The notes beneath the pieces were generated by a model that worked only from the letters and a program-made list of their open reading frames with translations, had not been told where the DNA came from and ran no database searches. A stretch of 64,000 bases of DNA, taken from Thiotrichales bacterium. Lineage in GTDB: Bacteria > Pseudomonadota > Gammaproteobacteria > HK1. A program made the position numbers and the translations under genes. The stretch spans positions 1 through 64,000 of the forward strand of contig JAPOSC010000033.1 of NCBI GenBank assembly GCA_026709935.1, read 5' to 3'. Shown piece by piece: positions 11,023-49,749 of this stretch (positions within the stretch are counted from its first letter, which is position 1; each line of letters starts with the position of its first letter).

Positions 11023-11201
11023 ATGTGGACAAGGCAGTGGACGAGGCGGTGAACGTGATGGACGCCCGGACGTTCCCACCCGGACGGGACCCGCTCTCGA
11101 AGTGGTCCCGAAGGGACGCTCCGGAGACCGAGATCCCGATCGAGTCGCACCATGGGTCGGCCTCTCGGCGCGGCAGCGGGCATTGCAGCGGGCGTTGCTG
11201 A
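11019..11201 (+). other. 60-codon relay ORF between ccoO and ccoQ
   Basis: GTG overlaps the ccoO stop (GTGA) and the TGA overlaps the ccoQ ATG by one base (TGATG). It starts in a 30-bp tandem near-duplication: GGACGAGGCGGTGAA occurs at 11009 and again at 11039. It also contains TGATGGACGCC at 11056, identical to the ccoQ start context at 11199. The predicted peptide is hydrophilic and unlike known families. It is probably remodelled spacer, possibly translated. Confidence 0.35.
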
Positions 11202-14595: not shown

Positions 14596-15576
14596 TCAGT
14601 CGGCAATGACATAGCGCTCCGGCAGCTTCGGGGCGTAGCGGGCATCCGGGTCCGACATGCGTTCGATCACGCTGCGGTGGACCCGCGCCCCCTCCGGAAT
14701 CACGCGCCGCCGGCGGCCGCGAAACCGCCAGAATCCACTGCACGACTCGTGCATCGTCCCCCGCGGGTCGCCACGATGCCGCGGATCGGCCAGCGCGTCT
14801 TCGTCGAGGTGCATGCCGCACGTTCGCGCCCGGTCCAGCATCCACTGCAGGGCGAGGTTCGAAAGCCCGCGCTCGTCGTACCAGCCGCCGACATCGGAGT
14901 GCACGCCCGCGAACCAGACCTGCTCCAGCACCTGATCGTCCGTGCGGCTCGCCTCCTCCCACAGGCACGGCGGGAAGTCGCGCCGGCGCTCGTCGATGGC
15001 CACGGCGTGAAAGGCGAACGAGGTGTCCGGGGTCGGTCGAGTGTCGTGCCACGTGCGCCCGGCGTTGAGAATCAGGGACTCGACGGTGTCCCACACTCCG
15101 ATGAAGTGCACCGGACACGGCCGCGCGAAGGTTGCGCGAAAGCCGGCCTCCACCGAGGCATCGCCCGGACCGGCGTCCTCCCGATGGTAGAGCTTCGAGG
15201 CGTACTCGACGAGATTGCCGGCGGTCGGGCACAACAGGCCGCAGCGGTGCAGCATTCCGGCCAGCGAACGCACCGTGAACGCGCCCCGGCTGAAGCCGAA
15301 CAGAAACACCCGATCTCCATCCTCGTACACCCGCATGAGGAAGCGGTAGGCTTCCTCGACGTTCCTGCGCAGCCCGTATCCGGTGGCCTGATCCATGGCG
15401 GCGTGCAGGGTGCCGCGTTCCTCCTCGTACACCCAGCCGCCGGTGCCGACGCCCGGGTCGTAGTAACGACACTGGTGCCCGCTCTCTTCGGCGAGCGCAT
15501 ACGCGGCGACCACATTGGTGTTGTGGGTGCCATACTCGTTCCCGGTGCCGTCACAGCACACGACGATGTTCTTCAT
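14596..15576 (-). CDS. DUF2235 alpha/beta-hydrolase-like protein
   Basis: A 326-residue protein of the DUF2235 family. The N-terminus MKNIVVCCDGTGN and the nucleophile elbow GFSRGA (Ser in G-x-S-x-G) are diagnostic, followed by HFIGVWDTVESL and WFAGVHSDVGGWY with the presumed acid and His. The family includes type VI secretion phospholipase effectors of the Tle1 type, but there is no secretion gene nearby, so housekeeping esterase activity is equally possible. The ATG at 15576 has GGAG 7 nt upstream. The 244-bp convergent gap to ccoH holds nothing I can identify. Confidence 0.82.
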   Translation of the reverse strand: MKNIVVCCDGTGNEYGTHNTNVVAAYALAEESGHQCRYYDPGVGTGGWVYEEERGTLHAAMDQATGYGLRRNVEEAYRFLMRVYEDGDRVFLFGFSRGAFTVRSLAGMLHRCGLLCPTAGNLVEYASKLYHREDAGPGDASVEAGFRATFARPCPVHFIGVWDTVESLILNAGRTWHDTRPTPDTSFAFHAVAIDERRRDFPPCLWEEASRTDDQVLEQVWFAGVHSDVGGWYDERGLSNLALQWMLDRARTCGMHLDEDALADPRHRGDPRGTMHESCSGFWRFRGRRRRVIPEGARVHRSVIERMSDPDARYAPKLPERYVIAD

Positions 15577-16747: not shown

Positions 16748-18079
16748 TCATTCAGGGCCGGGGGCAGCCCCCCACACCCGGCGCCCGGCGATGTATGTCG
16801 CTCGCACCGCGCGGTCGTCGCCAAGGATGGCGAGGGCGAAGAGGGTGTCCTCGAGGCTCTCCGAGAGGGCGTGGCGCGCTTCCAGCACCGGGGTGGCGGT
16901 GGGGTCGAGGACGACGATGTCCGCCCACCGACCGGGCTCCAGGGAGCCGATCTCGTCGTCGAGGCCCAGGTTCATCGCGTTGCCGCGGGTGGCGAGGTGG
17001 AACAGCGCGTGCGCACCCGGCGTGCGCCCACCGAGTATCGCCACCTTGTAGGCCTCGCCGAGGGTGTACAGCATCGAGTAGCTCGTGCCGCCGCCCACGT
17101 CGGTGGCGATGCCGATGCGCACGGGGCGGTCCGAACGCCCCACATGCGCGGCGTCGAAGAGCCCCGAGCCGAGGAACGTGTTCGAGGTCGGGCAGTGCAC
17201 GACGACGGTGCCGGACTCGGAGAGCCGCGCACACTCGCGCTCCGACAGATGGATACCGTGCGCGTACAGACTGCGCGGGCCGAGCAGGCCGAACCGGTCG
17301 TACACATCGGTGTAGTCCTTCGCCTGCGGGAACAGCCGCCGCATGAACTCGATCTCCCCCGCGCTCTCCGAGAGGTGGCTGTGCACGTGGCAGTCGGGAT
17401 GCCGGGCCGCGAGCGCTCCGGCCTCGCGGAGTTGCGCTTCGGTCGAAGTGATTGCGAAGCGCACGGTGATCGCGTAGCGCAGCCGGCCGCGGCGATGCCA
17501 GCGCGCGATCAGCGCCTCGCTGTCGCGCGCGCCCGACTCCGGGTCGTCGCACAACGCGGCCGGGGCGTTGCGGTCCATCAGCGTCTTGCCGCTGACGATG
17601 GCCTGACCGCGGCGCTCGGCCGCGGCGAAGAGCACCTCGGCGGCGGACCGGTGCACGGTGGAAAAGACCACCGCGGCGGTAGTGCCGTGCTGCACCAGGC
17701 GGTCAAGGAACACTTCCGCCGCGGCGCGTGCGTGCGACGGCGAGGCGTAGCGTTGCTCCTCGGGGAACGTGAACCGGTTCAGCCAGTCCAGCAGGTCCTT
17801 GCCGGGGGCGGCCAGCATCCGGTACTGGGGAAAATGGACGTGGGCATCGATGAAGCCGGGCAGCACCAGCGCCTCGCCGTGGTCGTCCGACGGGAGAGCG
17901 CGGAACCGTTCCGGCAGGCGACCCGCATGGCCGCGCCAGACGATGCGTCCGTCCCCGGAGATCGCGACCGCGCCGTTGCGGTAAAACCGCACCGCGCGAT
18001 CCGGCTCCGCGACGGCGGGGTCGTCGCGGTAGGTCAGGACCGCGCCGCGGATTACCCGCCCGTCGGACCCGGCGGTCAT
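16748..18079 (-). CDS. guaD: guanine deaminase
   Basis: A 443-residue amidohydrolase-superfamily enzyme converting guanine to xanthine and ammonia. Zinc ligands are visible: the HxH of PGFIDAHVHFPQ near residue 75, VHSHLSES, the YAHGIHLS and VVHCPTSN strands, and the Asp in IGIATDVGGGTSYSM. GKTLMDRNAPAAL is typical of GuaD. Length matches the family. It is the last gene of the purine island and overlaps (ATGA) a 31-codon ORF that links it to uraD. Confidence 0.94.
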   Translation of the reverse strand: MTAGSDGRVIRGAVLTYRDDPAVAEPDRAVRFYRNGAVAISGDGRIVWRGHAGRLPERFRALPSDDHGEALVLPGFIDAHVHFPQYRMLAAPGKDLLDWLNRFTFPEEQRYASPSHARAAAEVFLDRLVQHGTTAAVVFSTVHRSAAEVLFAAAERRGQAIVSGKTLMDRNAPAALCDDPESGARDSEALIARWHRRGRLRYAITVRFAITSTEAQLREAGALAARHPDCHVHSHLSESAGEIEFMRRLFPQAKDYTDVYDRFGLLGPRSLYAHGIHLSERECARLSESGTVVVHCPTSNTFLGSGLFDAAHVGRSDRPVRIGIATDVGGGTSYSMLYTLGEAYKVAILGGRTPGAHALFHLATRGNAMNLGLDDEIGSLEPGRWADIVVLDPTATPVLEARHALSESLEDTLFALAILGDDRAVRATYIAGRRVWGAAPGPE

Positions 18080-18171
18080 GGCAGCGTCCAGTCTTCGCTG
18101 CGGCGACGGAAATCGCCGCAGCGGGCCGGGACCGCACCGCGGATCGCCCGCTCGTCGTACGCGACACTCAT
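18076..18171 (-). other. 31-codon relay ORF, tandem copy of the guaD start
   Basis: It starts on the uraD stop and stops on the guaD start, with ATGA at both ends. Its first 43 nt match the first 43 nt of guaD at 34 positions, in the same frame and without gaps (ERAIRGAV against GRVIRGAV in protein). The repeat unit is 92 nt, equal to 2 modulo 3, which puts the TGA of the second start in frame with the first. This is a duplicated gene start; translation is unproven. Confidence 0.6.
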
Positions 18172-18704
18172 GGCATCACCCGGTCTTCGATGCGGAATCG
18201 CAGGATGCGTTCGACGTGGGCGAGGGCCGTGGCGTGCTCGGTGTCGGCATCGTTGTCGATCCGCGCCTCGAATGCGGCGAGGATCGCCTCCTTCGTCGCC
18301 CCCTTCACCGCGTAGATGAAGGGGAATCCAAAGCGGGCCCGGTAGCGGGCATTGAGATCCCGGAACCGGGCGAATTCCTCGGCGGTGAGCCGGTCGAGCC
18401 CCGCACCGGCCTGCTCGCGCCGTGACGCCTCCGCCATGTCGCCGGCCACCGCCGCCCGGCCCGCGAGATCCGGATGCGCGCGCAGCAACGCGCGCTGCGC
18501 CTCGCACGACGCCACGCCGACGGCGCCGACGAACGCCGCCACCAGCGCCTCGCGATCGGGGAACGGCCGTGCTTCGAACGCAGCCTCGGCCACCCAGGGC
18601 GACGCCTCCGCAACGTCGCCGAAGCGTGCGGCGAACGCCGCTGCATCGAGCGCGTTGACGGCGTCGATCGACGGGGGCGACACAGCAGACATCGGATCGC
18701 TCAT
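18168..18704 (-). CDS. uraD: 2-oxo-4-hydroxy-4-carboxy-5-ureidoimidazoline (OHCU) decarboxylase
   Basis: A 178-residue enzyme of the ureide pathway that decarboxylates OHCU to S-allantoin, the last step of urate breakdown. The signature HPDLAG near residue 76, GLDRLTAEEFARF and the C-terminal YRARFGFPFIYAVKG are diagnostic. It lies between puuD and guaD, joined to each through a short ORF with ATGA overlaps. The N-terminal MSDPMSAVSPP is low-complexity and is duplicated in the preceding short ORF; ATG at codon 5 is an alternative start. Confidence 0.93.
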   Translation of the reverse strand: MSDPMSAVSPPSIDAVNALDAAAFAARFGDVAEASPWVAEAAFEARPFPDREALVAAFVGAVGVASCEAQRALLRAHPDLAGRAAVAGDMAEASRREQAGAGLDRLTAEEFARFRDLNARYRARFGFPFIYAVKGATKEAILAAFEARIDNDADTEHATALAHVERILRFRIEDRVMP

Positions 18705-18778
18705 CGCGACCTCACCGTCAACGGGATGGATGGTACGGCTGCAGGCAAGGGCGGCACGGCAGACATCGGATCATTCAT
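18701..18778 (-). other. 25-codon relay ORF, tandem copy of the uraD start
   Basis: It starts on the puuD stop and ends on the uraD start, ATGA both times. The first 30 nt match uraD at 26 positions (MNDPMSAVPP against MSDPMSAVSP). The repeat unit is 74 nt, equal to 2 modulo 3. This is the clearest case in the window of a duplicated gene start forming a stop-start relay. Confidence 0.65.
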
Positions 18779-19980
18779 CGAGACTGCGCCGCCAGCCAGG
18801 CACCGAGGCGGGCCCGCTCCTCGTCGGTCATGCCGGTCGGGTTTCCGAGGGGCATGGTACGTGTACGCACCGTGTGCAGATCGACCAGAACCGCGTAGCG
18901 GCGCAGATCGTCGGTGGTCTCCAGCACGACGTTCTTGGGCGCGACCTTGAACGCCGGATGCGTCGGCGCTTGCGCGTGGCACGACACGCAGTGGGCATCC
19001 GTGATCCCCAGTACCTCCACGTCGCTCACCGACAACGCGGCGTTCGAATCGCCCGACGTCGGGGCGGTCATCGTGACCGGAGCGGTCAGAATAACTGCGA
19101 TAGCCAGCGCCACCGCCACCACCGGCAGGGTCCAGGCGACCGAGGCGAACGGCCTCCCGACCTCGACGTGCACCAGAAAATGCCGCGCACAGGCGCCCCC
19201 CACGATGATCAGGGCCACCAGCAGCCACGCATGCGGATGCCCGGTGAGCATCGGGTAATGCCCGCTCACCATCAGCAGCAGGACGGGCAGGGTCAGATAG
19301 GTGTTGTGCAACGAGCGCTGCTTGGCCACCTCCCCCAGAGCCGGGTCCGGCGCTTCGCCCGCAAGCAGTGCCGCCACCACCTTCTTCTGGTTGGGGATGA
19401 TCACCATGAAAACGTTGAAGGCCATGATCGTCCCGATCAGCACCCCGGCGTGCACCAGCGCGGCGCGGGCGGAGAAGACCTGCGTGTAGCCCCAGGTCGC
19501 GGCGACGCACAGGACGAAGACCGCGCCCGCCAGCACCACCGCGTTCGCGCCGACCCTCGAACGGCAGAGCACGGTGTAGACGACCCACCCCGCCGCGAGA
19601 CTCCCGACGGAGATGATCACCGCCGGCCAGGCGGTGAGCGGCATCACCCCGGGGTCGATGAGCCACGTCGAGGCGTCGAGGTAGAACTGCACCACCAGCA
19701 GCGCGAAGCCGGTCAGCCAGGTGAGGTACGCCTCCCATCGGAACCACGTGAGGTGCTCCGGCAGCGCCGGCGGCGCCACCGCGTACTTCTCCACCCGGTA
19801 GAAGCCGCCCCCGTGCACCTCCCACGCGGTGCCGGTGAGGCCCTCGGGCGCGTCGTGGCGACGGCGCAGCGAGAGGTCGAGGGCGATGAAGTAGAAGGAG
19901 GTGCCGATCCAGGCGATGCCCGCCACCAGGTGCGCCCAGCGGAGCAGCAGGTTGGCCCAGTCGGCGGCGAAGGCGGTCAT
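18775..19980 (-). CDS. puuD: membrane-bound urate oxidase (urate hydroxylase) PuuD with cytochrome c domain
   Basis: A 401-residue inner-membrane protein that oxidises urate to 5-hydroxyisourate and hands electrons to the respiratory chain rather than to O2. The N-terminal eight or so helices carry LLRWAHLVAGIAWIGTSFYF and HGGGFYRVEKY of the urate oxidase N-terminal family. The C-terminal domain has a haem c site CVSCH near residue 330 and a likely axial Met in RTMPLGN. It is the head of the puuD-uraD-guaD group. No hydroxyisourate hydrolase gene is visible, although that step lies between PuuD and UraD. Confidence 0.94.
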   Translation of the reverse strand: MTAFAADWANLLLRWAHLVAGIAWIGTSFYFIALDLSLRRRHDAPEGLTGTAWEVHGGGFYRVEKYAVAPPALPEHLTWFRWEAYLTWLTGFALLVVQFYLDASTWLIDPGVMPLTAWPAVIISVGSLAAGWVVYTVLCRSRVGANAVVLAGAVFVLCVAATWGYTQVFSARAALVHAGVLIGTIMAFNVFMVIIPNQKKVVAALLAGEAPDPALGEVAKQRSLHNTYLTLPVLLLMVSGHYPMLTGHPHAWLLVALIIVGGACARHFLVHVEVGRPFASVAWTLPVVAVALAIAVILTAPVTMTAPTSGDSNAALSVSDVEVLGITDAHCVSCHAQAPTHPAFKVAPKNVVLETTDDLRRYAVLVDLHTVRTRTMPLGNPTGMTDEERARLGAWLAAQSR

Positions 19981-40995: not shown

Positions 40996-41093
40996 CACCG
41001 CAGGACTCGGACCGGGTCGGGCCAACGCCGCAGGCGTCGCACCCCTGTTCATCCAGAACATTCACACGTTGCCCGCCGGAGCCTCGCTCATGA
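40992..41093 (+). other. 33-codon relay ORF between hydantoinase A and B genes
   Basis: It is bounded by ATGA overlaps with the A-subunit stop and the B-subunit start. The product would begin MTPQDSDRVGPTPQAS. Any similarity to the B-subunit N-terminus (MNPLPAAPASS) is too weak to claim. Confidence 0.35.
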
Positions 41094-49532: not shown

Positions 49533-49749
49533 CGGCAACCCAGGGGCGGGTGGGCGGTCGGAAGTGCCTCGCTACTGAAATTCTGTCCGGTGTCTCCGGC
49601 CTGTATGCACGGGCCTTCCCGAGAGTTCAGGAGTCAAACCGAGACTCTGCCGAGCGGGTCGGCTCGGCGGGTCGGGTCGGCTTCGTGGCGGCGCGATTGT
49701 CGGTACCATGACGCGGCTCCTCGAATCCAAGGGCCCAGGCATCCGATGA
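49529..49749 (+). other. two linked relay ORFs between the FecCD permease and the sodium channel
   Basis: The first (49529-49711, 60 codons, GTGA on the permease stop) ends on the ATG of the second (49708-49749, MTRLLESKGPGIR), and that ends on the channel ATG; both of these junctions are ATGA. The 213-nt spacer is thus covered by two open frames in relay. Neither resembles a known protein. Confidence 0.35.

Follow-up and report, generated by a model that had tools for sequence, protein, structure and literature searches.

Recurrent tandem duplications across overlapping gene borders build mini-ORF relays in operons of a marine gammaproteobacterial group

The puuD, uraD and guaD genes of a Thiotrichales bacterium are joined by two short open reading frames (ORFs), which are tandem copies of the gene borders on which they lie. 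Copied borders of this kind recur in the congeners, mostly in a phase that turns each copy into an intact mini-ORF. The analysis confirms that the duplication process is real and recurrent and that it has the relay built in. We think it probable that tandem duplications have repeatedly spanned the stop/start borders of coupled operon genes and thereby formed relay mini-ORFs that preserve the coupling. The window, that is the whole stretch of 64,000 nucleotides that was analysed, belongs to a draft genome of 88 contigs, here called G000, which was compared with four congeners (G001-G004) and with a member of another genus of the same family (G005).

All parts of the locus are on the reverse strand. 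The gene upstream of the relay, puuD (18775..19980; Pfam Urate_ox_N, 8e-122, and the ORF list), codes for a membrane urate oxidase with a cytochrome c tail, uraD (18168..18704; OHCU_decarbox, 3e-47) for an OHCU decarboxylase and the downstream gene guaD (16748..18079; Amidohydro_1, 1.5e-48) for a guanine deaminase-type amidohydrolase. ORF1 (18701..18778; 25 codons, MNDPMSAVPPLPAAVPSIPLTVRSR) overlaps the stop of puuD and the start of uraD, and ORF2 (18076..18171; 31 codons, MSVAYDERAIRGAVPARCGDFRRRSEDWTLP) overlaps the stop of uraD and the start of guaD. An earlier sequence-only reading had proposed that each short ORF copies the start of the next gene, and this is borne out by the 26 of 30 nt that ORF1 shares with the uraD start (18704) and the 34 of 43 nt that ORF2 shares with the guaD start (18079), a likeness equalled in none of 200,000 codon shuffles. 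Unit lengths of 74 nt (ORF1) and 92 nt (ORF2) can be read from the sequence as it had stated, as can ATGA at all four relay borders, which is the 4-nt stop/start overlap found in termination-reinitiation coupling.

The two copies of repeat 1 are located at the puuD end, where the junction is copied (18749..18784), and at the uraD start (18675..18710), with a self-match score of 23.5 at a shift of 74 and 86% identity. Repeat 2 (score 33, shift 92) has one copy over the uraD end and the ORF2 start (18113..18195) and the other over the ORF2 end and the guaD start (18021..18103), and 83 nt of its 92-nt unit are recognizable at 76% identity. This repeat takes in the last 28 nt of uraD and runs 55 nt past the end of the uraD stop; the start copies were rightly seen in the sequence-only reading, but the copied uraD tail was overlooked. 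Because repeat 2 also spans the uraD end, ORF2 is a GuaD head that continues in frame into a copied UraD tail (...RRSEDWTLP in ORF2, ...FRIEDRVMP in UraD), and ORF1 consists of the head of UraD and a short PuuD-like tail (...RSR, compared with ...QSR in PuuD). The copies are adjacent, in register, private to the locus and missing in single-copy relatives, as expected of tandem start duplications, and the array at these borders in the window has only two copies per repeat.

Tight mini-ORF relays between same-strand genes were also seen at positions 40996-41089, 11023-11200 and 49533-49745 of the window; these have no recognizable start duplication and may be due to chance or to decayed duplications. 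An ORF close to the purine genes (14596-15576, reverse strand) contains the catalytic domain of a Tle1-like phospholipase (Pfam PF09994, 6e-75).

Direct overlaps had been predicted for single-copy relatives, and they were found at both borders. In Thioalkalivibrio sp. HK1 (L115) and in Methylobrevis (L116), puuD and uraD meet in a direct ATGA; in other alphaproteobacteria the overlap is TGATG (L114) or short gaps are present. The uraD-guaD border is direct in G001 and G003, and two loci have a direct ATGA between puuD and guaD (L111, L112). Both insertions in the window are therefore most simply interpreted as derived. Two congeners, G002 and G004, both with single-contig chromosomes, have arrays of their own at these borders. 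In G002, mini-ORFs of 16, 32 and 32 codons separate puuD from uraD and six mini-ORFs of 11 codons each separate uraD from guaD; G004 has one 47-nt relay at the first border and ten mini-ORFs at the second. The uraD-guaD arrays of G002 and G004 share a 64-nt unit in the wrong phase, in which most units are bridged by an extra ATGA 32 nt in. The gap sequences of G002 show no likeness to those of G000 above the shuffled level, and the events in these two genomes are thus separate. In G003, a short gene that looks, from its peptide, like a FitA-type antitoxin is located between puuD and uraD (L107:5209-5550), which overlap directly in relatives.

The arrays at both borders support the suggestion of a recurrent process, and so does a wider survey of the genus. 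Genes were called de novo, with our own caller seeded with known genes rather than from curated annotation, in 855 kb of G000, 1100 kb of G002 and 400 kb of G004, and same-strand gene pairs were searched for ungapped self-matches that cover the downstream start. Tandemly duplicated starts were identified in 31 of 1027 pairs, as compared with 0 of 587 control pairs (Fisher p=1e-6) taken from G005 (192 pairs), pSymB (154), the Cupriavidus metallidurans megaplasmid (155) and alphaproteobacterial loci (86). None was identified in 258 shuffled junctions from G000, G002 and G004. Among the affected operons are those that we take, from our own reading of the proteins, to be livG-livF, potA-potB and soxA-soxG. 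The potA-potB border is a single-copy TGATG in G003, and G002 and G004 share a 134-nt unit there with a 44-codon relay, the peptides of which differ. Two other repeats were observed on contig C1 of G002. A 19-nt tandem array, ATGAATCGTTCCCGGGGAA, follows a stop on the minus strand (189270-189453, in L021); its units bear ATGA and form 13-codon mini-ORFs, each over two units, in a chain that stops short of the next gene. At 120697-122061 (in L018-L019), four 339-nt repeats with 99% identity lie within a single coding region and represent an expansion of very recent date.

A unit is in relay phase when its breakpoint in one gene matches that in the other in codon phase. Among the 18 events in which the first copied start lies on the upstream stop, 13 are in relay phase, two keep the frame of the gene and three fall in the third phase; two of these three represent the single 64-nt array common to G002 and G004, and in the remaining one the mini-ORF nonetheless ends on the ATGA of the gene. 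If all 31 events are considered, there are 22 in which the frame opened by the copied start closes at the start of the gene, as compared with six for the other two frames together (p=1.2e-6 against 1:2), and some duplicated starts form no relay. The rule of the sequence-only reading, that units of 3n+2 give a relay, thus stands as an excess of relay-phase units and falls as a fixed length modulo 3. The phase in which the upstream frame is aligned to the downstream frame is 2 modulo 3 for ATGA and TGATG, and it is 1 modulo 3 for 8-nt overlaps such as ATGACTGA, for TGACCCCATG and for 4-nt spacers. We therefore dropped the plain rule in favor of a unit phase that tracks the local junction geometry.

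The tabulation of lengths modulo 3 that the sequence-only reading had called for yielded the excess in the surveyed parts of the three genomes, but it does not serve as proof of selection. At 127 single-copy coupled junctions of G000, G002 and G004, the upstream tail was compared with the downstream head, and the share of exact matches in relay phase was 51% for 5-mers, 57% for 7-mers, 70% for 9-mers and 81% for 10-mers. Because microhomologies are biased in this way, slippage between them would yield a phase excess with little or no selection, and the excess was dropped as evidence of selection after this control. Mutation alone may account for most of it, and the same codon-phase bias should skew any slippage at overlapping gene borders.

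How the relays might arise and persist can be outlined as follows. Slippage or recombination would produce a duplication whose two breakpoints, one within the gene 1 tail and one within the gene 2 head, match in codon phase, and both flanking proteins would be left unaltered; mutation would favor this phase because the microhomologies of two coding stretches are mostly matched in codon phase. The product would be a mini-ORF that reads in one frame from a gene 2 head into a gene 1 tail; it would start on the gene 1 stop and end on the gene 2 start. Since both of its borders overlap, a terminating ribosome could reinitiate twice, or about ten times in the expanded arrays, and thus reach gene 2. 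In E. coli, a distance of 38 nt between two genes lowers reinitiation by 80-100% (PMC10666635), and an untranslated insert of about 70-90 nt should therefore uncouple them. Untranslated RNA could also be open to Rho, resulting in polarity (PMC12548453). A relay would escape both fates, provided that ribosomes translate the mini-ORFs in the cell as their layout predicts, and the copies would then persist by maintaining the coupling and the ribosome cover on the mRNA.

We also considered the possibility that the relays are a mutational by-product, in which phase-matched duplications provide a relay for free, the downstream genes initiate on their own and no selection is involved. This is a realistic alternative, albeit one that we hold to be less probable than a relay retained for coupling. 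The relay-phase share of the microhomologies (51-81%) is near the observed 13 of 18 and 22 of 28, and duplicated starts are common in the genus irrespective of phase. However, 20 intact relays were observed, against 6.6 to 10.8 under a simple neutral decay model, a result that hinges on an assumed indel ratio of 5% and a gap that shrinks with no indels. It also speaks against a pure by-product that the lone wrong-phase array, with its 64-nt unit between uraD and guaD, is bridged in most of its units. Finally, relays with no detectable duplication number 58, as compared with 32 expected from shuffled gaps, so that some of them are due to chance; this count was restricted to ATG and GTG starts and a close join, since TTG starts and loose joining inflate it. 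The excess fits older duplications that have decayed past recognition. Selection for coupling remains a suggestion. A more elaborate version, in which the arrays are selected as an evolvable dial, seems doubtful to us: every extra mini-ORF would lose a fixed share of the reinitiating ribosomes, the copy number would set how much gene 2 protein is made relative to gene 1 protein, and a codon-phase matched duplication would be a safe step in one mutation.

The short ORFs might instead encode small proteins with a function of their own or leader peptides with a regulatory role, given that ORF1 and ORF2 are open, start with ATG and are positioned for translation. But the conserved peptides that this would predict, and that the sequence-only reading had named as the outcome contrary to its own, were not seen among the congeners: the peptides are missing in G001 and G003 and unrelated in G002 and G004. 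The livG-livF mini-ORF changes mainly nonsynonymously, with two synonymous and nine nonsynonymous differences between G002 and G004, as compared with 18 and nine in livF (p=0.011), so that the frame is kept and the peptide is not. We hence find a function of the peptides hard to credit. Even less plausible, and indeed refuted by the evidence here, is a chance similarity or an assembly artefact. GC-rich DNA can give short repeats by chance and G000 is a draft assembly, yet no shuffle matched the observed similarity and arrays are also present in two single-contig chromosomes. Nor are the copies collapsed or repeated reads, as they diverge by 14-24%.

The closest known kin of these units are the mycobacterial interspersed repetitive units (MIRUs), each of which contains a small ORF coupled to its neighbors by a 4-nt overlap (Supply et al., 1997, as related in PMC12548453). 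MIRUs are described as a dispersed family and thought to be mobile (PMC12548453). As in the MIRUs, ORF1 and ORF2 are coupled at a spacing of -4 at both ends, so that an insertion need not uncouple the genes, and the units are located between co-directed genes. MIRUs can form tandem arrays; the window has just two copies of each repeat at puuD-uraD-guaD, and arrays are present at the corresponding junctions of G002 and G004. Mobile units of this type, inserted at overlapping stop/start sites and bringing a coupling ORF with them, would share the design of a small ORF that is coupled at -4 spacing where the unit has inserted (PMC12548453), and one junction in G000, soxA-soxG, does carry a dispersed element with 22-bp inverted repeats. 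For puuD-uraD-guaD, an origin from mobile units is disfavored and in our view very unlikely. In a search of the whole genome for copies, the ORF1 unit was found once and the ORF2 unit once, along with a 34-nt partial match, and most duplicated units have no match beyond their own junction; each copies its own flanking genes. Unlike the dispersed MIRUs, the units are private border copies that combine a gene 2 head with a gene 1 tail and stem from local duplication, and their phase tracks the type of the local junction. The units would work like MIRUs but are not MIRUs. The soxA-soxG insert (L179:1340-1465, in C8 of G000) is MIRU-like: the insert with its inverted repeats is flanked by a 25-nt duplication, which takes in the start codon, related copies occur elsewhere in G000, the relay phase is kept and a 66-codon through-ORF ends on the 8-nt overlap of soxG, where congeners have a direct overlap.

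Other systems share single features with the relays. Termination-reinitiation at ATGA and TGATG overlaps needs a short distance (Huber et al., 2019, 2023; PMC6728339, PMC10666635), and the same overlaps are found at each handover here; the known pairs represent a single handover, whereas one to ten mini-ORFs made by duplication are added in the relays. Short upstream ORFs by which a gene is supplied with a ribosome, such as the iraD uORF (PMC5574718; the idea also appears in PMC12548453), are similar in that a short ORF is coupled to a downstream start and its peptide need not matter; the relays differ from them in being located within operons, coupled at both ends and copied from the flanking genes. 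The TAACTGA direct repeats of marine Beggiatoaceae (PMC4679880) are also tandem repeats placed directly before start codons across a gammaproteobacterial genome, but they repeat a single invariant heptamer that has stops in every frame, with no relay ORFs and no local copying of starts. Beyond the MIRUs, a search of open-licence papers turned up no earlier report that ties tandem duplication to overlapping starts and reinitiation.

Where two genes overlap, slippage between sites matched in codon phase would yield a working relay in a single step. Such duplications leave the flanking proteins unchanged at any unit length and only the coupling separates the phases, so that the set of events, once the mutational phase bias has been subtracted, constitutes a natural test of selection for coupling. 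The arrays also provide natural constructs, with the number of reinitiation steps ranging from one to ten, in which the loss per step could be measured. In this marine gammaproteobacterial group, the repeated copying of gene borders thus amounts to a natural experiment on how neighboring genes are kept translated together.
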